This document shows positions 26,764 to 47,503 of a DNA stretch of 48,382 bases, piece by piece; position 1 is the stretch's first letter; the number at the start of each line of letters is the position of its first letter. This DNA comes from a virus. The notes under the pieces are model-generated. The model ran no database searches. It saw nothing but the letters and a program-made list of their open reading frames with translations, and was not told the DNA's origin. Location of the stretch: positions 1-48,382 of IMG/VR virus record IMGVR_UViG_3300013131_000067. One strand, 5' to 3'. The translations under genes and the position numbers were made by a program.

Positions 26764-27621
26764 ATGATAGAAATGAAATCCACGATAGATGAAATGGCAT
26801 TAATGGATTTTTTTTACAAACAATTTCAATGACAAAAACAAAAAATAGACATAATAATATGACCAGAATACGAATATAGATTTGATTTGTTTATGAAACA
26901 AAACAAAATACGCAATCCCAATAATGGAATAAAAAAGCGTTTTTTACAACAGATGATAAAAACAGATTATTATGATAATTGATGTAAACTAAAAACTATT
27001 TGCGAAACATTATACCTTGAAGGATATGGTTTTAAATTATTAGCTAGAAAATTTGATGTTAGTTATACCGAAATTAGAACCATATTCAATAATTTAGAGA
27101 TAGAAAAACGACACGGTTTATGCGTTGTGACTAATAAACTCAAAGAAGTTAGAAGTATAAATCTAAAAGAAGCATATAATAAAAGAGAAGGATTTTTCAA
27201 AACTTTTGAAAAAAAAACTAATAAAACTTCTAGGGGAGTGCAAGGATATTATTATAATCAAGGAATGAATAAATTAGTTTGATTGAGAAGTACTTACGAA
27301 TTCATATATGCTAAATGATTAGACAAACAAAAAATAATTTGAGACGTTGAAGTAAAGACTTTTCGACTAAAATCTACTTATTATAGACCGGACTTTTTCT
27401 TGTTTGATGACATCAACAATCTTACTATAAAAAAGATTGTTGAAATAAAAGGATATTGACAAAGAGATGTAAAAAAACTCAGAGAATTACAGCGTGAAAA
27501 TCCTCTAAATTGTGAAGTTTGCATTATATTTGATGTAAAACCTTATATAGAAGAAAATTCTAATTATTCAAAGGAACTAAAAGAATGAAAGAAAAGCAGA
27601 ATATTACTATTAGAAAAATAA
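26764..27621 (+). CDS. PD-(D/E)xK homing endonuclease-like protein in the split reductase
   Basis: 285 aa, between the two reductase halves. A helix-turn-helix-like segment (GFKLLARKFDVSYTEIRTIF) lies around residues 82-105. The C-terminal third has WLRSTYEFIYAKWLD, TYYRPDFFLF and KKIVEIKGYW, which fits a PD...ExK nuclease core. All eight Trps are TGA, unlike the exteins. The last 37 nt overlap the C-terminal reductase half. It differs from the Vsr-like enzyme in the helicase cassette, so the two insertions have separate origins. Confidence 0.78.
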
Positions 27622-28640
27622 AAAAAATTAGTGTTAGAAAAAACAGAGATGTATTTGATATTACGGTTCTCAGAAATCATAACTTTTTTGCTAATAAAAC
27701 GTTGGTATCAAATTGTAACGAAGTCTCGCTTAAGCCATTTCAATTTTGTAATTTGTGTGAAATAAACGCGTCAGACATTGAAAGTCAAGAAGATTTAAAT
27801 GAAAGAGTGGAAGCTGCCGCATTTATTGGAACACTCCAAGCATCTTATACAAACTTTCATTATTTAAGAGATGTTTGGCAAAAAACAACTGAGCGGGATG
27901 CTCTTCTTGGAATAGGAATGACAGGATTAGGTAGTGGTAAATTTTATGATGTTAATTTAGAGGAAGCCGTTCAATTAGCCAAAAAGATAAATAAAGAATT
28001 AGCCAAAGAGATTGGAATAAATAAAGCATCTAGACTTACTGTAATAAAACCTTCGGGTACCGCTAGTGTTCTTCTGGGAACAAGTTCTGGAATTCACGCG
28101 TGGCACAGTGATTATTATATTAGAAGAGTAAGGGTCGGAAAAAACGAAGCGATTTATAATTATCTTTCCAAACAACATCCAGAACTTATAGAAGATGAGT
28201 ATTTCAAACCAGAAACAGATGCAGTTATTGCAGTGCCGCAAAAAGCTCCGAAGAATTCCATTCTAAGGCATGAAAGCGCCTTAGAACTATTAAATAGAAT
28301 AAAGTATATCACCAAACATTGGATTATTCCTGGACATATCAAGGGAGAAAATCACAATAATGTTTCTGCCACCGTTTCTATTCGAGATCATGAATGGGAT
28401 GTAGTTGGAAGATGAATGTGAGATAATAGGAATTATTATAATGGTCTTTCAGTCCTTCCTTACGATGGAGGAACTTATGTTCAAGCTCCGTTTGAAGATT
28501 GCTCAAAAGAAGTATATGAAGAAATGATAAGTCATTTATCGGATATAGATTTATCAAAGATTGTAGAAGAAGAAGATATGACATCCGCAAGAGAAGAAGT
28601 AGCTTGCGCTGGTGGTTTATGTACAATAGATAGGATATAA
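27585..28640 (+). CDS. C-intein plus class II ribonucleotide reductase C-terminal half
   Basis: Residues 1-43 are a C-intein with block F (RDVFDITVLRNHNFFAN) and block G LVSN, then extein Cys44. Splicing gives GNP-CNEVSLKPFQFCNL, the conserved NPC(x)E loop of class II reductases, and a 622-aa enzyme. The rest has LLGIGMTGLGSG, KPSGTASVLLGTSSGIHAWH, GENHNNVSATVSI and a C-terminal redox pair CAGGLC. The penultimate intein residue is Ser rather than the usual His. TGA-coded Trp occurs in VGRWMWDN. Expression depends on its own start inside the endonuclease gene. Confidence 0.9.
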
Positions 28641-35173: not shown

Positions 35174-38100
35174 TTATAAATCAGTACGAAATCAAATTCT
35201 TCCTATTTCCGGACTAACAGGATCAGAAGTTCTATTTTCTAATACGAATCCAGCATTGCTATTTATAAAACCTGAAATTGGTTGTGTAGCAGATAAAGAA
35301 CCGGATATTCTTGTATCACCATATAAATCTATTTCAGAAAGACCTGTTAACGATAATGTTTGTGCAGATTCTATATTTATATTTCCATTAGAAGATATTG
35401 ACATGCCCTTAATGGAAAACAAATTAAGATTTTGATTTGTTGAAATGGCTATTGAATCACCATTAACATCAATTGGCAGTATTTGATTCGTTTGGAATCC
35501 ATCATTGGCGGATAATGATTGATCTTTTATTTCTACTCCACTTCCATAATCAAACGAAACTATTTTATTGGTATTACCAGCTCTTATTTGTAAATTATCA
35601 CTATTAGCACCATGTAAATTGGATGTATAAGTATTAGTAGATGATAACGATAATGTAGCAGCTAATGTATTTATATTAAAAATATTATTATTACTTAAAT
35701 TTAAATCTCCTGTTAAAATTCCTCCTCCAATTGGAAGATATGCATGAGTATGTGCTGACAAACTATATTGAGGATGATCGTTATTTAATAATCCAGATAA
35801 TGAATTATGGGGAATTCCAGATCCATTTCCGCTTATTGACTGAGCAGACAATGATCCTGTAATTGTAAAAGATGGTCCTAAGTATCTACCAATTCCGGTA
35901 TGATTAATTGTAAATAAGTTAACTGCTCTTCCAGATGTTTGATCATATAATCTTCAAATAAAAGAAGAATCCGTAATCATTCTAGAGTGTTTGGATCCTG
36001 ATCTTAAATCAGTACTTGCTTGCCCACCATCTGTACTTTCTATATAATTTCTAACAACTCCACCACTAGCCACATGAAATATATATGTCGGATCTGTTGC
36101 GCTACCAACTCCAATAAATCCATTTGATTTTAAGAAAATGCCACTATTATTACCAGAAGATCTTATTACGCTTGATGTAATAGAATTGGCAGATAATCCA
36201 TTTGTAAACGTAGATAGTCCTGTGACAGTACCGCCACTTAACGGCAATGCATTAACATCAGTAACTCCAGATAAACCAGATCCACTACCGTAAAAACTAT
36301 TTGCAGATAGATTTCCATTAACATTAAATTCTCCATTATGAACAGTATAAGAAGATGTTATTGATAAACTTGGATTTTGATATGTAGCAGAGGTCTTTCC
36401 TGCAAATAAATTTACATAACTATCAGCAGATATGCCTAAAGTATCTGCGAATGATTTTATGTAATTTGTTTGAACTCAGTCCGAAAATATTGAATTTGTA
36501 ACAAATAAGTTATTATTTGCGGAAACAGATCCTTGAAACAACGCACCACCAAAACCATTAAAAATATAATGATAGTCATCTTGACAATAAAATTCTACAT
36601 TCGACGCTGTTTTATAATAAAAAGTGTTATTTTGAATAGATCCTGCATATATTATAGTAGCGGCGGATAAACTGTTGACATACGTATCAATGCCATAAAT
36701 ATTTTGAGAATAAAAATCATAACTTGATGAAACGGATGTTGGATTAAAAGAAAGAACTTTATGTTTATCAACCGCAACGGCAAATCCACTAGCAAGTTTA
36801 TAAAAACCATTATCATTATCCGATGCAAAATATAAAGACGGAGAAGTTTCAGATCCGTCAGCAATACCAATTAAAGATGATGTTAAGCCTTGCGTAAAAT
36901 AGGTGAATCCAGTAACGCTACCACCCGAAATCGGTAAATAATTATGACTATGAGAAAGTGGATTTATATTTGATATACCATAGCCATCTCCAGATAATGT
37001 AGTCGCAAATAAACTATTTGAGGAGATAGATGGCGAGGTAATTAAATTTTGACAATGCAGTAACGATTTGATTTCAGCGGTATTTGAAACATATAAACAT
37101 CCTGCATTTGTACTTGCAAATTTTGTAGGTATATTCTGAGATTGTGATGTCAAGAAACTAGGATGATAATTTGTGATAGTGCCAGTATTACTGGTTATAT
37201 ACATGTTGCCGTTAAAGAGCCCGCCGTGTCCATGTCCACCATAAATTGCTCAGTTTTTATCATTCAATGTTGGGAATGTTGAAAAAGAACCTAAACCCAA
37301 TAAACCAATTGAATATGAATTTTCAGTACTTCTAGCAGCAAGTCCAAGAACACCAACTGCGTTTCCTGTTGTAGCATTCGTATTATTTCCATAACCCATA
37401 TAACCTACAGCAGAACCAGAGAGAGAGTTTACTCCTTGAGAAAATATACCTTTACAATTTGAAATATCTGGTCTTAAAAAAGCAACAGTATTTGCGGTAT
37501 TATTATTTGATATGATGCCAGCGCCAACACCATTATTTTCAACATATATTCCAGAATCTACTGGAACCAAACCGCCACTTGTATATTTTGAAGCATTTAT
37601 ACCAGCAGGTGTGTTTTTTATGTATAAACCATAAAAAGATTCAAGTGAAAATATATTAGCAGTTACTGTAGAAAAATTAGTTTCAGAATATAATCCACTA
37701 TATTTACCTGTTCCAAACATTTGACTAGTAAAAGCATAGTTATTTCTTATTTCATTAGAAGCTCTATTTACAACAGAATCTGTAATTAAAGGTACATTTG
37801 TATAGGACGTTCAATTTGCTGATAAGTTTAATTGTTTTGCGGTATTATTTGTAGAATGTCATGTTGTTATATTATCAATATAAGCTTTAGTTCTTTTTAT
37901 CTGACCATCAACCTTTACAAATATAACACCATCAGTAGCGTTTTTTACAGTTACAACGCCTATTTTTACGGAGTATTGACTATCTATCGGTTCAACATTT
38001 GTGATTTGACCATCGGTTGAACTTAATCATAGAATGTCACCTTCAACATAACTATTTGTATTTAATCCACGAACTAAACCATTTGTTGTCACATAACCGT

Positions 38101-38788
38101 TATTATTATCGCTTATATCATGAGTTACAACTCCAATTGTTTGAGATGCTGCTGATAATGAAGTAGAACTTGCTAAAGCAATTGTTGGCCTATTTCCTTG
38201 AGCGCCATTTATAAAAACAACCGAACCATTTGGTATCAATACGCCTGTTTTATTTACAACTCTAATAAAGAATTCTTGTCCAATTTGTAATGTAACTCCA
38301 TCATGTTCCGTATCCATACATAAAGTTTTATCATCATCGCTTCAATATAAAGAACCTTCTTGATGAATATGAGTTAAAGATGATGTTAAATTAAATTGCA
38401 ATTCATCAATATTGGATATGTTATATTCACCCATATTAATATCACCAGACATCGTGTCGCCAGATAATGGTAAATAAGAACCAACACCAGCAATAACTCC
38501 ACTTAATCCACTTCCATCTCCAATGAATATACCTGTAGCAGACACGTTTGTTCAATCAACATCTGCGCTTGCAACAATTCCAGTTAATCCAGAACCGTCT
38601 CCAACAAATGTGCCAGTTAAAGATGATCCATTGCCAATAAACACGCCAGTTAAAGAAGTTATAGAAGATGAATATGGAATTCATGAATTATTATTTCATA
38701 TATAATAGTTATCAGCATATACAGAACCTCTTATTAGATTCTTTCCAGATGCCGATGAATCAAAATGTAGTGGGTTTTTTCTTTCCAA
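35174..38788 (-). CDS. Long modular tail fibre protein (1204 aa)
   Basis: Six fragments share one frame and join when TGA is Trp. Repeats include GDGSGLSGV / GNGSSLTGT and LPLSGGTVTG / LPISGGSVTG, alternating with beta-rich spacers, as in trimeric phage fibres. The C-terminus (FVLENRTSDPVSPEIGRI then WFRTDL) is a widespread fibre foot. The start is taken as TTG at 38788 because no ATG exists in frame before the upstream TAA at 38813; the GGAG lies 12 nt away, so the start is uncertain. It opens the leftward module and probably binds host receptors. Confidence 0.78.
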
Positions 38789-39211: not shown

Positions 39212-39778
39212 ATGGCAAATAATATATCTAAAAAAGAACTTCAAAAAATAAATATAACAAATTATGATGAGATAAGAAAAAGTATAACGAGCGGAATGCT
39301 TGCGTTTATGTCTGGAAACTATCCTATTTCAAAGATCATTGGAAAATTCACCAAATCTCCGTGGTCACATATCGGAATTTTATTTTACATAAAAGAAATT
39401 GATAGAGTTATGCTATTAGAAAGCGTAGAAGATATGGGTGTACGCTTTATTCCTTTTTCTCATTATGTAAAAGAATATGATGGCGAGGTGGTGGTGTGCT
39501 CTCTAAATAATTTACCTAACATTGATCTAAACATACATCTTGCAAAAGGAATTGATCTGATACTTAGAAAATATGATAAAATTGAACTTGGAAGAATTGT
39601 TGCTCGTATTATTCATGGTGAGGGTAAAGTTCATGATAATCAGGCATATATATGTTCTGAATTAGTTGCTGAATCATTTAAAGAAATATATAAATTTAAA
39701 TATAATAAAAAAGGTTTTATTAGTCCTCAGGATGAATGATTGGATGATAATGTAGAATTATTATGACGAGTGAAATAA
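39212..39778 (+). CDS. Permuted NlpC/P60-like (YiiX/YebB-type) cysteine hydrolase
   Basis: 188 aa. The circularly permuted papain-like layout is visible: SPWSHIGILFYI with His53, then LLESVEDMGVRFIPFSHY, and the late nucleophile YICSELVAESFK with Cys148. Related proteins cleave peptide, amide or acyl bonds. In a phage it might trim cell-wall peptides or act on lipids; no signal peptide is seen. The last two Trps are TGA and the first TGG. Not certain to be the endolysin. Confidence 0.72.
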
Positions 39779-42425: not shown

Positions 42426-43655
42426 ATGGCTATTATGCGTACGGAAATTCAGGGTCAAATGACCGTTGACCTTATTCGTGATAAGGTTAATAAGTTAAAC
42501 AAGCGTGCTCAAAAGCTTGGCATTAACGGCCTTACGATGGAAGTTACTTCTGAGAATCGCGAAGTCAAGATCGGTTATATTAAGGTTATTAAGACCTTTT
42601 ATACCGTTACTATTCATGGTGAACCTATTCATTATAATGGTTGGACTTTTCTTAGTCGTGTTGATATGGTAAATGGCATTCCAGTTTTCTTTAACGCTCC
42701 AGATACCAATAATAATATGAACGAAAAGTATAGTGATCTTAACACCTCTCGTTGTGATCACTGTCATCATGATAGGCGTAGAAATTCTGTTTACATTCTT
42801 CGTCATGAAGATGGTCATGAGGTTGTTGTTGGTTCTACCTGCATTAAGGATTTCTTGGGTAATCTTCCTGAAAAGGCTCTTTGGGCGTGGAAGAATCTTG
42901 AGAAGCTTGATCGTGATTTTGATGATTTTGGTGGTAGTAAGTATAATGAGAATGTTATTGAGCGTCTTGATTTCTTTGCTTTGACGAACGCTCTTATTCG
43001 TATGAATGGTTGGGTACCTAAGTCTGCCGCATATAACGAAAAGACTTCAACCGCGAGCGATATCATTTACTATCTGAATCCGCCTTCAAGTGTTCATCCT
43101 GAGCCTTATAAGGCTTGGAAGCATTTTGTTGATAGTATCACTATTTCCGATGAAGATATGAAGATTGCTAATGAGGTTAGTAATTGGATTAATCAATCTA
43201 CTGATAATGCTCGTACGATGAATGACTATATGTATAATCTTCGTGCCATGAATAAGTCTGAGTTTGTTGACTACAAGCATTTTGGTTATATGGCTTCTGC
43301 GGTTGCTACTTATCTTAAGGAAATGAATAAGATTCGTATTGAGAGGGAAAAGACTGAAAATAAGTCTAACGAGCATTTTGGTAACGTTGCAACTCGCCAT
43401 AAGAATATCTCTTTGAAGTTTGTTAGTTCTAATGCTTTCGAACGTCAAAATAGCTATTATTATAATGATAATTGTATCTCTTATCGTTATACTTTTGAAG
43501 ATGATAAGGGTAATCAGTTTGTTTGGTGGACAAGCGATATAATTAACGATCTTGAGAAAGATCATTTCTATAGCGTTGACTTTCGGATTAAGAAGCATGA
43601 TGAGTATAAGGGTCGTAATCAGACCATTATTACTCATGTTAAGTTTAATGATTAA
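42426..43655 (+). CDS. Phage protein with Cys/His cluster (409 aa)
   Basis: AGAAGGAG precedes the ATG. A CDHCHHDRRRNSVYILRHED motif near residues 113-132, then GSTCIKDFLG, forms a likely zinc site shared with uncharacterised phage and plasmid proteins. The C-terminal ~100 residues look OB-like and beta-rich (YRYTFEDDKGNQFVWWT, FYSVDFRIKKHDEYKGRNQ). All Trps are TGG and codons are biased toward GTT, CTT, CGT and AAG, unlike the genes before it, suggesting high early expression. Nucleic-acid binding is inferred. Confidence 0.65.
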   Translation: MAIMRTEIQGQMTVDLIRDKVNKLNKRAQKLGINGLTMEVTSENREVKIGYIKVIKTFYTVTIHGEPIHYNGWTFLSRVDMVNGIPVFFNAPDTNNNMNEKYSDLNTSRCDHCHHDRRRNSVYILRHEDGHEVVVGSTCIKDFLGNLPEKALWAWKNLEKLDRDFDDFGGSKYNENVIERLDFFALTNALIRMNGWVPKSAAYNEKTSTASDIIYYLNPPSSVHPEPYKAWKHFVDSITISDEDMKIANEVSNWINQSTDNARTMNDYMYNLRAMNKSEFVDYKHFGYMASAVATYLKEMNKIRIEREKTENKSNEHFGNVATRHKNISLKFVSSNAFERQNSYYYNDNCISYRYTFEDDKGNQFVWWTSDIINDLEKDHFYSVDFRIKKHDEYKGRNQTIITHVKFND

Positions 43656-43666
43656 GGAATAAGATA

Positions 43667-44740
43667 ATGAAGATCAATTCTAACTTGTATAAGAAGATTC
43701 TGGAAGAAATTGAGTTGGGATACATCTCAGTCCAGTCTCATCCCACTCTTCCTATTTTCATTTATAACTATACTCAAAAGACTCAATTTGAATGGCGTTG
43801 GAATGAGGCTACTTCTATTTGTAGAGGTCTTATTCTCGATTCAAAACTAAACATCGTTGCAAGACCTTTTGAAAAGTTCTTTACTCTTGAACAGTGTAAG
43901 GATATGAACATTGAGATTCCTTACGATAAGTCATATTCTATCTTTCCTAAGATGGATGGTTCTTTAGGAATCTTTTGGTCTTATCAGAATGAATATGGTA
44001 TTGCTACTAGGGGTTCATTTACTTCTGATCAAGCAATTGAAGGAACTAAGATTCTATATGAAACGTTTTCTTATGGTAAATTAGAAGCAATGAGAGAACT
44101 TTCGCGAAATGTTACGTTTTTGTTTGAAATCATTTATCCGGAAAATAGGATTGTTGTTGATTATAAGGGTAAGCGCGATTTGGTGTTTTTAACGGCAATT
44201 GATATTATCAACGGTTATGATGACGGCGATGCTTATTTTATGTTTTTTAAGAATAGAGTTAATAGAATTCAGTTTAATGGTTCTTTTGATGACCTTAAGA
44301 ATCTGAATAACATCAATGAAGAAGGTTTTGTAATTCTTTTTGACATCGGTTTCAGAATGAAGATTAAGTTTGAAGAGTATCTTCGTCTTCATAAGCTATA
44401 TTGTGGTTTGTCTAATAAAATGATTTGGGAAATGCTTTCAGAAGGAAGGACAAAAGATGAAATTCTAAATGATATGCCAGATGAATTCATGAATTGGGCA
44501 AAGTCTATAATTGAAAAGTTAGATTCACAATTCTTTACTCATCAAACGGCAATTTTGAATTTATTTAACTTATTCAAGATGTATAGTGAAGATAGAAAGA
44601 TGTTTGCGGAAAAGGTTATGTGTTGTAGAAAGGATTATCATTCAATGTTGTTTTCGGCGTTGGATGGAAAGAATTTTGATAAGCAAATTTGGCGTCTTTT
44701 GAAGCCGAAAGAAGTCGAAAAGTTTAATTCCGTTTCTTAA
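43667..44740 (+). CDS. T4 Rnl1-like RNA ligase
   Basis: 357 aa nucleotidyltransferase that joins RNA ends. Motif I is KMDGS with the AMP-accepting Lys95 (T4 Rnl1 uses Lys99). CRGLILDSKLNIVARPFEKFF precedes it, ATRGSF follows, then FLFEIIYPENRIVVDY (motif IIIa region) and VILFDIGFRMKIKFEEYLRL (motifs IV/V: FRMKIKF). The C-terminal ~100 residues are helical. All Trps are TGG. It probably repairs tRNAs cut by host anticodon nucleases; the kinase-phosphatase partner was not found here. Confidence 0.87.
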   Translation: MKINSNLYKKILEEIELGYISVQSHPTLPIFIYNYTQKTQFEWRWNEATSICRGLILDSKLNIVARPFEKFFTLEQCKDMNIEIPYDKSYSIFPKMDGSLGIFWSYQNEYGIATRGSFTSDQAIEGTKILYETFSYGKLEAMRELSRNVTFLFEIIYPENRIVVDYKGKRDLVFLTAIDIINGYDDGDAYFMFFKNRVNRIQFNGSFDDLKNLNNINEEGFVILFDIGFRMKIKFEEYLRLHKLYCGLSNKMIWEMLSEGRTKDEILNDMPDEFMNWAKSIIEKLDSQFFTHQTAILNLFNLFKMYSEDRKMFAEKVMCCRKDYHSMLFSALDGKNFDKQIWRLLKPKEVEKFNSVS

Positions 44741-44762
44741 TGTAAAAAAGGAGTTTGCAAAA

Positions 44763-45056
44763 ATGAATAAGCCTAATTTTGTTAATGGTTTTAATGATCA
44801 AGAAATCAAGATTGGTGATAGGGTTGCTTATCCCACTTATGGCGGTGGAATGAGTCAAGGAATTGTGGTAGATATTGTTCCTGGCTCTTATTATAATTGG
44901 CGATGCATTCGCATTGAAAAAGGATTTAATGCGGTTATTGAAATTGACGTTAATTATTATTCGAGTTTTGATTATGAAAGTCAAAAGTCGGTTTATAAGA
45001 CATATAAGCGTAGGTTTGAAAGTAATAAAACTAGATATCTAGTAAGGATTAGCTAA
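44763..45056 (+). CDS. Small SH3-like protein (97 aa)
   Basis: AAGGAG lies 10 nt upstream. The N-terminal half (IKIGDRVAYPTYGGGMSQGI, then VVDIVPGSYYNWRCIRIE) resembles a KOW/SH3-like barrel; the C-terminal tail is basic. Trp is TGG. It may bind RNA or protein, but the family is not established. Confidence 0.58.
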   Translation: MNKPNFVNGFNDQEIKIGDRVAYPTYGGGMSQGIVVDIVPGSYYNWRCIRIEKGFNAVIEIDVNYYSSFDYESQKSVYKTYKRRFESNKTRYLVRIS

Positions 45057-45060
45057 ACAA

Positions 45061-45675
45061 ATGAATATATTCTTTACATCTGATTTCCATTTCTCGCATA
45101 GACGGATTATTGATTATTGTCCGGAGACTCGAGGACGGTTTCGATTTGAAAATGGAGATTATGATTTAAATAGTATGAATGAAGCTTTGATTGAAATGTG
45201 GAATTCCGTCGTTAGGTCGGAAGATATTGTTTATTTCTTGGGAGACTGGTCTTTGCATCCTAAGAATAGAGATAAGTTTCTTTCTCGTCTTAATGGTCAT
45301 ATTACTTGGATCAAAGGAAATCACGATTATCGTTCCAAAACTGCTCTTGAACTAATGAAGAGTAGAATGATTTATTATCCAGAAGCACATCTTATGTCTA
45401 ATAATGGACGTGGTTATTTGATGGTTCATTCCCCATTTGATATTCAAAGATATGAGCGTCATATTCCCGATACTGCGAGAATTATTTGTGGTCATGTTCA
45501 TGAAAAGTGGAAGGTAAAAGCTAAAGATAGTTTTATAGAAGCTTATATCACTTCTGATCATAGCGAAGGTGGATTTGTAACAAAACATCCTATCGTGAAT
45601 GTCGGATGTGATGCGTGGTCAATGAATATGGTTAGCTTGGAAGAATTGGAAGATTTGTTCATGAGGATTGAATAA
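45061..45675 (+). CDS. Metallophosphoesterase
   Basis: 204 aa calcineurin-like phosphoesterase. All metal motifs are present in order: TSDFHFSHRR (DxH, residues 8-10), FLGDWSL (GD, 61-62), IKGNHDYRS (GNHD, 86-89), MVHSP and CGHVHEKW (GHxH). It hydrolyses phosphoesters; the substrate (nucleotide, RNA 2',3'-phosphate or protein) cannot be told. Lying three genes from the RNA ligase, an RNA-end-healing role is conceivable. All Trps are TGG. Confidence 0.88.
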   Translation: MNIFFTSDFHFSHRRIIDYCPETRGRFRFENGDYDLNSMNEALIEMWNSVVRSEDIVYFLGDWSLHPKNRDKFLSRLNGHITWIKGNHDYRSKTALELMKSRMIYYPEAHLMSNNGRGYLMVHSPFDIQRYERHIPDTARIICGHVHEKWKVKAKDSFIEAYITSDHSEGGFVTKHPIVNVGCDAWSMNMVSLEELEDLFMRIE

Positions 45676-45678
45676 ATT

Positions 45679-45909
45679 ATGAGATTTATTTCTAACGATA
45701 AGGTAAATCCTTTAATCGGCGAAACTAGAATTATAAAGAAGTTTCTTTTATTTCCAAAGTGCTTACAAAATTTAGACGGTTTTTTTGAATCGAGATGGTT
45801 TGAAACGGCTATCATAGAAGAAATTTATGAAGAAAGAGGAGTATATATTTCAGCAGATCCCGGATATTCTTCTGAAGTTGATTGGTGGGAAAATAGATGG
45901 GTAAATTAA
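45679..45909 (+). CDS. Hypothetical protein (76 aa)
   Basis: Starts 3 nt after the phosphoesterase stop. The C-terminus is rich in Trp written as TGG (DWWENRWVN). It looks beta-rich. Function unknown. Confidence 0.55.
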   Translation: MRFISNDKVNPLIGETRIIKKFLLFPKCLQNLDGFFESRWFETAIIEEIYEERGVYISADPGYSSEVDWWENRWVN

Positions 45910-45924
45910 GGAAATAAAATAACG

Positions 45925-46146
45925 ATGGACAAAATTCTAGTTAGTCGTAAAGAATGAGAAAGATTGAAAAAACTTGAAGAAAAACAAACTAAAGAAGATT
46001 ATTGTTTTTGAGTGCCATGAGAAACGTTCGGAAAAAATGGATGATTATCGCCACATAAGGATAAAAAGTTCTATATATCAATAGGCGATAATTCAATTTG
46101 TCCAACTTGTCATAAGGAAATTAAGAAAGATGTCTCGATCATATAA
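45925..46146 (+). CDS. Small CxxC protein (73 aa)
   Basis: Four of four Trps are TGA (KEWERL, CFWVPWETFGKNGWLS), directly after a set of TGG-only genes. ICPTCHKE near the C-terminus, with an earlier Cys, may bind zinc. Function unknown; the 3' end overlaps the next gene by 17 nt. Confidence 0.55.
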
Positions 46147-46312
46147 AAAGAACAAATACACGAAAAGTAAGGTAATTGATACGTCGTGTAGATGTCATGG
46201 CGGATGTCCTTATTGTTTAAGTAATAGAATGCACTCAGATAATAAGAAAAAGATGTCAGCTGATTATATTTATTATGAAGATATAAATGAGGAACAAGAT
46301 GAGAGTATATAA
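46130..46312 (+). CDS. Small Cys/His-rich basic protein (60 aa)
   Basis: MSRSYKKNKY then CRCHGGCPYCLSNRMH gives a compact zinc-binding cluster after a basic start, a pattern seen in small phage proteins of unknown function. It has no Trp. Overlaps both neighbours, implying coupled translation. Confidence 0.55.
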   Translation: MSRSYKKNKYTKSKVIDTSCRCHGGCPYCLSNRMHSDNKKKMSADYIYYEDINEEQDESI

Positions 46313-46730
46313 TGTAACGGTTACTGAAAAACAACTTAGGGTTCTTAGGGACGCAACCGAGTTATTGACGAGAATTGGTTTAGGTCAATGGAGGGAAATT
46401 ATAGATTGGATGCCTTTAGAAAAAGGTATTTCCTCCGAAGATTTAAATGAAATAGGTCAAATCCTTTCAAAATATACTGAGAAAAGTGTAGATGGTTATT
46501 CGTCTTATATCGGTATTCATAATGCAAGAGATTTTGCTAAGATATCAGATGATTTATATCAAGTTTTTAGACATAGGTTAAGTTGGGATCATGCAAAAGA
46601 TAATAATCTAACAAATGAAGACGGTTCTAGAAACTGGGCTGATATGTTATCGGTTTATTATGATGATCCAATGAAGTATTCTTATGAACCGTTTGCAATA
46701 GTAAAGGAACTCCATAATGAAAAAGAATAA
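46299..46730 (+). CDS. Hypothetical protein (143 aa)
   Basis: The ATG at 46299 is preferred over 46287 because GAGG lies 5 nt before it. Helical; LRDATELLTRIGLGQWREII near the N-terminus resembles uncharacterised phage proteins. All Trps are TGG. Function unknown. Confidence 0.6.
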   Translation: MRVYNVTVTEKQLRVLRDATELLTRIGLGQWREIIDWMPLEKGISSEDLNEIGQILSKYTEKSVDGYSSYIGIHNARDFAKISDDLYQVFRHRLSWDHAKDNNLTNEDGSRNWADMLSVYYDDPMKYSYEPFAIVKELHNEKE

Positions 46731-46836
46731 TAAATATCGCGAACAAATCAATGAACTAGTTAAGAAGATTATGAATAATCAAGTTATGTGTATATGTTGT
46801 GGAAAAAGCGTATTAAATCATAATAAGGAGAAGTAA
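46717..46836 (+). CDS. Very small CxxC peptide (39 aa)
   Basis: Overlaps the previous gene by 14 nt and ends 5 nt before the decarboxylase homologue. CICCGKSVLNH near the end could bind a metal. Real because of tight spacing on both sides, but short. Confidence 0.42.
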   Translation: MKKNNKYREQINELVKKIMNNQVMCICCGKSVLNHNKEK

Positions 46837-46841
46837 ATTTA

Positions 46842-47360
46842 ATGAAGATTAGAGTTCCTTATGAATTTTTTGAAACAAAAGGTATAGGAGAAAGTGCCTT
46901 AGAACATCATGCAGGAAGTTACCATTTTGCGTTACATAGTGCCGGTATTGCAAACTTCAATATAATGACATATAGTTCAACAATTCCAAAAACAGCAAAA
47001 CTAGTAAACTATAATGATATTATAGATAATTTACCTTTTGGTTCGGAATTAACATGTATTATGTCGATATGTAATGGCGAAGAAAGTGAATTGTTATCAG
47101 CGGGTATTATTTACGGCTGGTTATTTGATGAAAATAATGAAAAAATAGGTGGTTTAGCTTGCGAAGTTTCAGGGTGTTATCCATTAGATGAACTTGAATA
47201 TAGATTAGAAGCCGTTATTCGAGAACTACACATAGGAACATATTCTGAATATGAACTTAAGGATCTTAGAACCATAACTAGTAGCCACACTCCACAAAAA
47301 AGATACGGAACAGCTTTAGCTGCCTTATGTTTTGTTAGTTTTAATAAAGATACTGAATAA
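46842..47360 (+). CDS. Pyruvoyl-dependent arginine decarboxylase homologue
   Basis: 172 aa, close to the ~165 aa of Methanocaldococcus PvlArgDC. FALHSAGIANFNIMTYSSTI matches the region around the self-cleavage site: Ser45-Ser46, whose second Ser becomes the pyruvoyl cofactor. Asn40 matches the conserved NxN asparagine. Glu108 (GGLACEVSG) aligns with the catalytic Glu109. The ending, SSHTPQKRYGTALAALCFVS, fits the EHT...G.A.AA end. The family makes agmatine and CO2 from arginine. GGAG precedes the ATG by 10 nt. Trp is TGG. Polyamine supply or pH control during infection is inferred. Confidence 0.83.
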   Translation: MKIRVPYEFFETKGIGESALEHHAGSYHFALHSAGIANFNIMTYSSTIPKTAKLVNYNDIIDNLPFGSELTCIMSICNGEESELLSAGIIYGWLFDENNEKIGGLACEVSGCYPLDELEYRLEAVIRELHIGTYSEYELKDLRTITSSHTPQKRYGTALAALCFVSFNKDTE

Positions 47361-47503
47361 TGAATATAGTTTTTTCAAATATATGTTTGGCTGATTTCTT
47401 TGAAACCCTTTGCGGCAAAGGGATGGATGAAAAAACTTGTAATAAAAACAACCGCTTTTTTATTACAGGTGATTTAAGTAAAATGTATAGTTATATCAAA
47501 TAA
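47360..47503 (+). CDS. Possible small protein (47 aa) or structured RNA
   Basis: ATG overlaps the preceding stop. The frame is Cys-containing (three Cys) and lacks Trp. It is filled by two strong hairpins, so the segment may work as RNA instead of, or as well as, coding sequence. Confidence 0.38.
   Translation: MNIVFSNICLADFFETLCGKGMDEKTCNKNNRFFITGDLSKMYSYIK
47406..47422 (+). other. Hairpin 1 of a tandem pair
   Basis: CCCTTTG and CAAAGGG pair perfectly around a CGG loop. Very compact and GC-rich for this genome. Confidence 0.5.
47435..47470 (+). terminator. Hairpin 2 of a tandem pair, possible terminator
   Basis: A 14-bp stem with one G-U pair (core TGTAATAAAAA with TTTTTATTACA) and an 8-nt loop. 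The T-run is inside the stem, not after it, so termination is plausible but not assured. It lies between the decarboxylase gene and the next promoter. Confidence 0.45.

Follow-up and report, generated by a model that had tools for sequence, protein, structure and literature searches.

Gene organization of the viral locus

The DNA analyzed here (the window) is a linear IMG/VR virus record of 48,382 bp, and its features are listed in Table 1 together with those of related phage contigs. A gene of the pyruvoyl-dependent arginine decarboxylase (PvlArgDC) family lies inside a co-directional, tightly packed run (42426–47503) that also encodes proteins of conserved phage families; it is a metabolic gene located within a virus genome. 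The phrog_2319 protein that opens the run shows 28% identity to a KVP40-type phage protein (tblastn). Upon reading of the sequence, an AAGGAG-like ribosome-binding site for the PvlArgDC gene was found within the 3' end of the 39-aa ORF that precedes it. Neither agmatinase nor deoxyhypusine synthase was detectable in the window, which is a fragment, and no arginine/agmatine antiporter occurs among its annotated genes or the listed neighbors of the other phage copies.

The replication and nucleotide genes of the window encode a PolIII-type DNA polymerase, a UvsX-like recombinase, a DnaB-like helicase, dCMP deaminase, thymidylate synthase, and ribonucleotide reductase. Over its first ~40 residues, the ribonucleotide reductase fragment at 27585–28640 is similar to an intein splicing domain (C-terminal half; below the Pfam cut-off), which suggests that this gene is split by an intein, with its upstream part in neighboring ORFs. 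The protein encoded at 39212–39739 matches phrog_1128 ("enoyl-CoA hydratase/carnitine racemase-like," E = 8e-16) and is possibly the product of another auxiliary metabolic gene. No close relative of this phage was found among deposited phages.

Table 1. Features of the window and of related phage contigs
Feature	Position	Strand	Basis or remark
Recoded ORF, 1,204 aa, 11 TGA / 0 TGG	35174–38788	-	~170-residue stretch 33–39% identical to phage tail fibre proteins
phrog_2319 (conserved phage protein), opening the run	42426–43655	+	PHROGs E 7e-67
T4-type RNA ligase / tail fibre attachment catalyst, phrog_562	43667–44740	+	PHROGs E 1e-58; Pfam RNA_lig_T4_1
Calcineurin-like phosphoesterase, phrog_547	45061–45675	+	PHROGs E 9e-41; Pfam Metallophos_2
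Upstream gene of the run, 147 aa	46287–46730	+	Nothing above any family cut-off (Pfam, PHROGs)
39-aa ORF with CxCC motif	46717–46836	+	Ends 5 bp 5' of the PvlArgDC start; sequence reading
PvlArgDC-family proenzyme, HAGSYH / Bacteroidales-type branch	46842–47360	+	172 aa, ATG start, TAA stop; PF01862, AlphaFold2 model
Predicted beta chain, residues 1–45, ending at Ser45	46842–46976	+	Alignment with M. jannaschii Ser52-Ser53
Codons for His23-Ala-Gly-Ser-Tyr-His28, branch signature	46911–46928	+	His28 replaces M. jannaschii Asp35
Predicted alpha chain, residues 46–172, N-terminal pyruvoyl from Ser46	46977–47357	+	Alignment; invariant residues
47-aa ORF, last of the run	47360–47503	+	Overlaps the PvlArgDC stop codon (TAATG); sequence reading
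Deoxyhypusine synthase family protein	L117 6374–7345		PF01916, E 1e-39; same strand as PvlArgDC, 104 bp upstream of it
PvlArgDC, then peptide deformylase 9 bp later	L118 9983–11043		Capsid genes just downstream
PAPS-reductase-like genes	L119 8836–10002; L121 8836–10002; L122 12343–14220; L123 10533–11768		phrog_2302 (L119), homologues elsewhere; partial DUF3440

Regional use of TGA codons

In many genes of the window phage, TGA codes for Trp. The coding density (ORFs of at least 100 aa) rises from 55% to 90% once TGA is read through. A reading of TGA as Gly (code 25, Gracilibacteria-type) was rejected, as thymidylate synthase scored 58.7 bits with it and 74.5 bits with Trp. The use of TGA is regional: structural-like ORFs rely mostly or wholly on it, an ORF of 1,336 aa contains 31 TGA and 4 TGG codons, and the polymerase and helicase genes use TGG only. 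The run with the PvlArgDC gene has 0 TGA and 29 TGG codons versus 134 and 66 elsewhere in the window (Fisher p = 4e-13), and it is therefore readable under the standard code. By its codon content, the run could be translatable before any recoding machinery acts; an early timing of PvlArgDC expression is a speculative extension of this idea. No tRNA genes, including suppressor tRNA genes, were found in the window.

Protein family and predicted structure

The window gene is a real, intact, phage-borne member of the PvlArgDC family. PF01862 (PvlArgDC) is the sole Pfam family matched by the ORF, with 102.3 bits (E = 3.4e-29) against a curated cut-off of 22.7 bits. Residues 5–165 cover positions 1–161 of the 161-position profile, so that the family membership and full-length colinearity proposed in the initial annotation are borne out. 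The scores for the two NCBIfam equivalog models TIGR00286 (45.8 bits) and NF009064 (42.8 bits) are below the respective cut-offs of 106.95 and 207, though the model length is matched.

The AlphaFold2 model, built from an input of 29 window and locus sequences, has a mean pLDDT of 93.5 and a pTM of 0.88. A Foldseek search of the PDB (E ≤ 0.001) retrieved 12 chains, all of Methanocaldococcus jannaschii PvlArgDC (best 1n2m and 2qqd), and the TM scores to the nine intact proenzyme chains are 0.79–0.89. No AdoMetDC structure is among the Foldseek matches listed, and BFVD (viral protein structures) contained no match at E ≤ 0.001. An identity as an AdoMetDC-fold (SpeD-derived, class 1b) arginine or ornithine decarboxylase (ADC/ODC) was considered and rejected because the only Pfam match is PF01862.

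Processing residues and the HAGSYH motif

Asn40 and Ser45-Ser46 of the window protein align with Asn47 and Ser52-Ser53 of the M. jannaschii enzyme, with no gap between the motifs, and Glu108 aligns with Glu109. These four residues, which the initial annotation had singled out, are invariant in all 107 branch members (9/9 viral and 98/98 cellular). In the PvlArgDC family, Ser53 has been tied to cleavage and Glu109 to its facilitation (PMC2720952). By this alignment, the window proenzyme is predicted to self-cleave at Ser45-Ser46 into the two chains given in Table 1.

His23 and His28, the two ends of the HAGSYH motif, likewise do not vary among the 107 branch sequences (98 cellular, 9 viral). 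The position of His23 is occupied by Pro in M. jannaschii and mostly by Tyr in the flavobacterial type. Where the window protein has His28, M. jannaschii has Asp35, the flavobacterial type always Glu, and the Lichenicola enzyme Asp; the window protein thus has no acidic residue at this site. In the work of Tolbert et al. 2003, Asp35 of M. jannaschii PvlArgDC reportedly contacts agmatine; it is the residue in touch with the substrate side chain. The replacement by His28 weakens the claim of arginine specificity, not that of family membership. Because of this replacement throughout the branch and the scores below the equivalog cut-offs, arginine is an inferred substrate. No measured activity was found for any member of the HAGSYH branch.

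Viral homologs

The survey of phage genomes that the initial annotation had proposed showed that viral PvlArgDC is rare. The window protein and two other phage copies had 0 detectable homologs in 50,697 deposited phage records (INPHARED, even at E = 10), PHROGs contains no family for it, and a single-sequence search of viral contigs returned no phage relative. Searches with two- and twelve-sequence alignments identified eight further IMG/VR contigs from several phage lineages, which makes nine known viral contigs including the window.

On a T4-like contig of 129.7 kb (L118), the PvlArgDC gene lies within 3.5 kb of genes for a gp21-like prohead protease and the gp23 capsid protein, and this copy is therefore truly phage-borne. 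The deoxyhypusine synthase family protein of contig L117 is only ~23% identical to its Bacteroidales counterpart, the last enzyme of the pathway suggested for those bacteria (below), and is probably a homospermidine synthase-like enzyme; no further deoxyhypusine synthase and no agmatinase turned up when the window and the other phage contigs were searched. In L084 (406–3083), PvlArgDC shares an operon of overlapping genes with two upstream genes, one ATP-grasp-like and the other of the PF09924 aminoacyltransferase-like kind (lysyl-phosphatidylglycerol synthase C-terminal-like), which hints at an amine-conjugating pathway. A PAPS-reductase-like gene is adjacent to PvlArgDC or at most 2 kb away in L119, L121, L122, and L123, which represent three distinct phage lineages. 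L119, in which a terminase gene is close to PvlArgDC, is near-identical to L121 in gene content. PvlArgDC is under purifying selection in this phage pair (dN 0.060, dS 0.476, dN/dS about 0.13); the figure applies to L119/L121 only, as the nearest relatives of the window gene are saturated.

Cellular homologs and operon context

The closest cellular relatives found are those of Tannerellaceae and Porphyromonas at ~58% identity, for example Parabacteroides distasonis WP_005856730 (58% over 165 residues). PF01862 was present in 36 of the 392 Bacteroidales genomes and 187 of the 395 Bacteroidota genomes sampled, and the flavobacterial copies recovered are of a different sequence type from the HAGSYH branch. 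A 375-kb sequence labeled as a Parabacteroides plasmid (NZ_OY725779.1, L003) carries clpB, bamD, and the RNA polymerase omega gene. With these chromosomal housekeeping genes, it is probably a chromosome fragment, and it thus gives no evidence for plasmid carriage of PvlArgDC.

The gene neighborhood was analyzed in 20 Bacteroidales loci outside Tannerellaceae (L154–L173), with neighbor identities checked against the PDB. An agmatinase gene lies directly downstream on the same strand in nine of them (gaps of -3 to 90 bp) and ~2.3 kb upstream in two more. A deoxyhypusine synthase family gene is downstream in 11/20, and one or both genes follow PvlArgDC directly in 13/20. Many of these loci display a conserved operon of PvlArgDC, agmatinase, and deoxyhypusine synthase. 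Bacterial members of the deoxyhypusine synthase family can make homospermidine (PMC9992855), and the operon suggests a compact pathway from arginine via agmatine and putrescine to homospermidine. The Tannerellaceae and Porphyromonas loci examined do not have this operon. In Lichenicola, PvlArgDC adjoins genes for an antiporter, N-carbamoylputrescine amidase, and agmatine deiminase.

Phylogeny

The tree of the HAGSYH branch is split with full support (100/100) into one group of the other Bacteroidales with L120 and L122 and another of Tannerellaceae with six phage sequences including the window. In the latter group, phage branches from five distinct lineages surround the Tannerellaceae clade. 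About four changes between viruses and cells are placed on the tree, and well-supported branches compel two to three of them; the long viral branches (0.7–0.9 changes per column for the window and L117) and an incompletely settled bootstrap limit its reading. A grouping of these six phage sequences into a single clade was neither demonstrated nor rejected (p-AU 0.216), so that transfer from phages to Tannerellaceae is only one possible direction. It is doubtful that HAGSYH PvlArgDC is a long-standing phage family from which the Tannerellaceae and Porphyromonas copies were acquired; the window gene was more probably acquired from, or exchanged with, Bacteroidales.

Proposed function

Here, we propose, with a probability of roughly 0.7, that the window gene is an auxiliary metabolic gene for a self-processing PvlArgDC enzyme that boosts the supply of agmatine, and hence of polyamines, during infection. 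The proenzyme would fold and cleave itself between Ser45 and Ser46, and Ser46 would become the pyruvoyl cofactor, so that PLP of the host would not be needed. The processed enzyme would convert arginine to agmatine as the first step toward polyamines. Host agmatinase, or agmatine deiminase with N-carbamoylputrescine amidase, would presumably convert the product to putrescine and onward to longer polyamines. Polyamines may then support translation and phage replication and improve phage growth, although this benefit to the phage is speculative. Arginine as the substrate is supported by the many cellular branch members that lie in the PvlArgDC–agmatinase–deoxyhypusine synthase operon. The initial annotation had offered DNA packaging, acid buffering, and redirection of host arginine as roles of agmatine. 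The agmatinase and deoxyhypusine synthase neighbors favor polyamine supply instead. Nothing found speaks for acid buffering, as neither the annotated window genes nor the listed phage neighbors include an antiporter.

The HAGSYH branch may alternatively be a pyruvoyl decarboxylase of another amino acid, named after distant arginine-using relatives. Such a shift would fit the invariable His at a position that is Asp or Glu in the other types, together with the second invariant His23, and the Lichenicola enzyme, encoded with agmatine deiminase and N-carbamoylputrescine amidase, keeps the Asp. We nevertheless consider it rather unlikely, as agmatinase genes directly downstream in 9/20 loci would make little sense for a product other than agmatine or a close guanidino-amine. 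The comparison also exposes a Bacteroidales branch annotated as arginine decarboxylase as differing at a residue said to contact the substrate.

Consumption of protons or arginine by the phage enzyme to control acid or arginine, as in Chlamydia AaxABC, is an unlikely purpose. Chlamydial family members do work in arginine:agmatine exchange (PMC2720952), but the genes associated with the branch are polyamine enzymes, and no antiporter is present among the annotated window genes and listed phage neighbors. It is very unlikely that the protein, processed or not, has no decarboxylase activity and is a decayed remnant or was co-opted for a structural or regulatory role. The long viral branches of the window and L117 would suit such a fate, whereas the processing residues are kept in 9/9 viral copies, selection is purifying in L119/L121, and the window ORF is intact with a plausible ribosome-binding site. 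That the viral contig is mis-assembled or includes cellular DNA might be suspected from the position of the gene 1 kb from the end of a linear fragment, but this is hardly credible given the run shared with phrog_562, phrog_547, and phrog_2319, the lack of TGA codons in gene and run alike, an identity of only ~58% to any cellular copy found, and the L118 copy beside capsid genes.

Comparison with known systems

The enzyme proposed here, a polyamine-feeding PvlArgDC, shares with M. jannaschii PvlArgDC (PDB 1mt1, 1n2m, 2qqc, and 2qqd) a common fold, a full-length alignment, and the Asn, Ser-Ser, and Glu processing residues. It differs in its low identity (22–23%), in His28 for Asp35 and the HAGSYH motif, and in being phage-borne. 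The Bacteroidales enzymes, such as that of P. distasonis, belong to the same HAGSYH branch but are chromosomal, and many of those outside Tannerellaceae are followed by agmatinase and deoxyhypusine synthase genes. Chlamydial AaxB is also of the PF01862 type, self-cleaves at Ser53, and uses the strand with the Glu109 equivalent; it functions in arginine:agmatine exchange with a porin and an antiporter, and such partners were not found around the window gene (PMC2720952).

Among viruses, the chlorovirus PBCV-1 also encodes an arginine-to-agmatine step feeding polyamines. According to the work cited in PMC9992855, this enzyme is PLP-dependent and derived from ODC, and the virus, which infects eukaryotes, has its own enzymes from agmatine to putrescine. 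A search of the open-licence literature gave no prior account of a phage-borne PF01862 gene, and in this respect the remark of the initial annotation that no well-characterized phage example is known holds for the family. It does not hold for the reaction: Li et al. 2023 demonstrated activity for phage arginine and ornithine decarboxylases that depend on a pyruvoyl group and have the AdoMetDC fold, and reviewed the reasons why spermidine matters to phages (PMC9992855). These AdoMetDC-derived enzymes (class 1b; pelagiphage HTVC201P and others) resemble the window protein in being phage-encoded, in generating the pyruvoyl cofactor by self-cleavage, and in decarboxylating arginine or ornithine, but their fold is unrelated and they are not homologous to PF01862 (PMC9992855). 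What is new in phages is therefore the enzyme family, not the reaction. PvlArgDC represents a second pyruvoyl enzyme, not homologous to the first, through which phages appear to supply the synthesis of polyamines. Arginine or ornithine decarboxylation seems to have been picked up independently by phages more than once, and this repeated gain lends support to the idea that phage replication is limited by polyamines.
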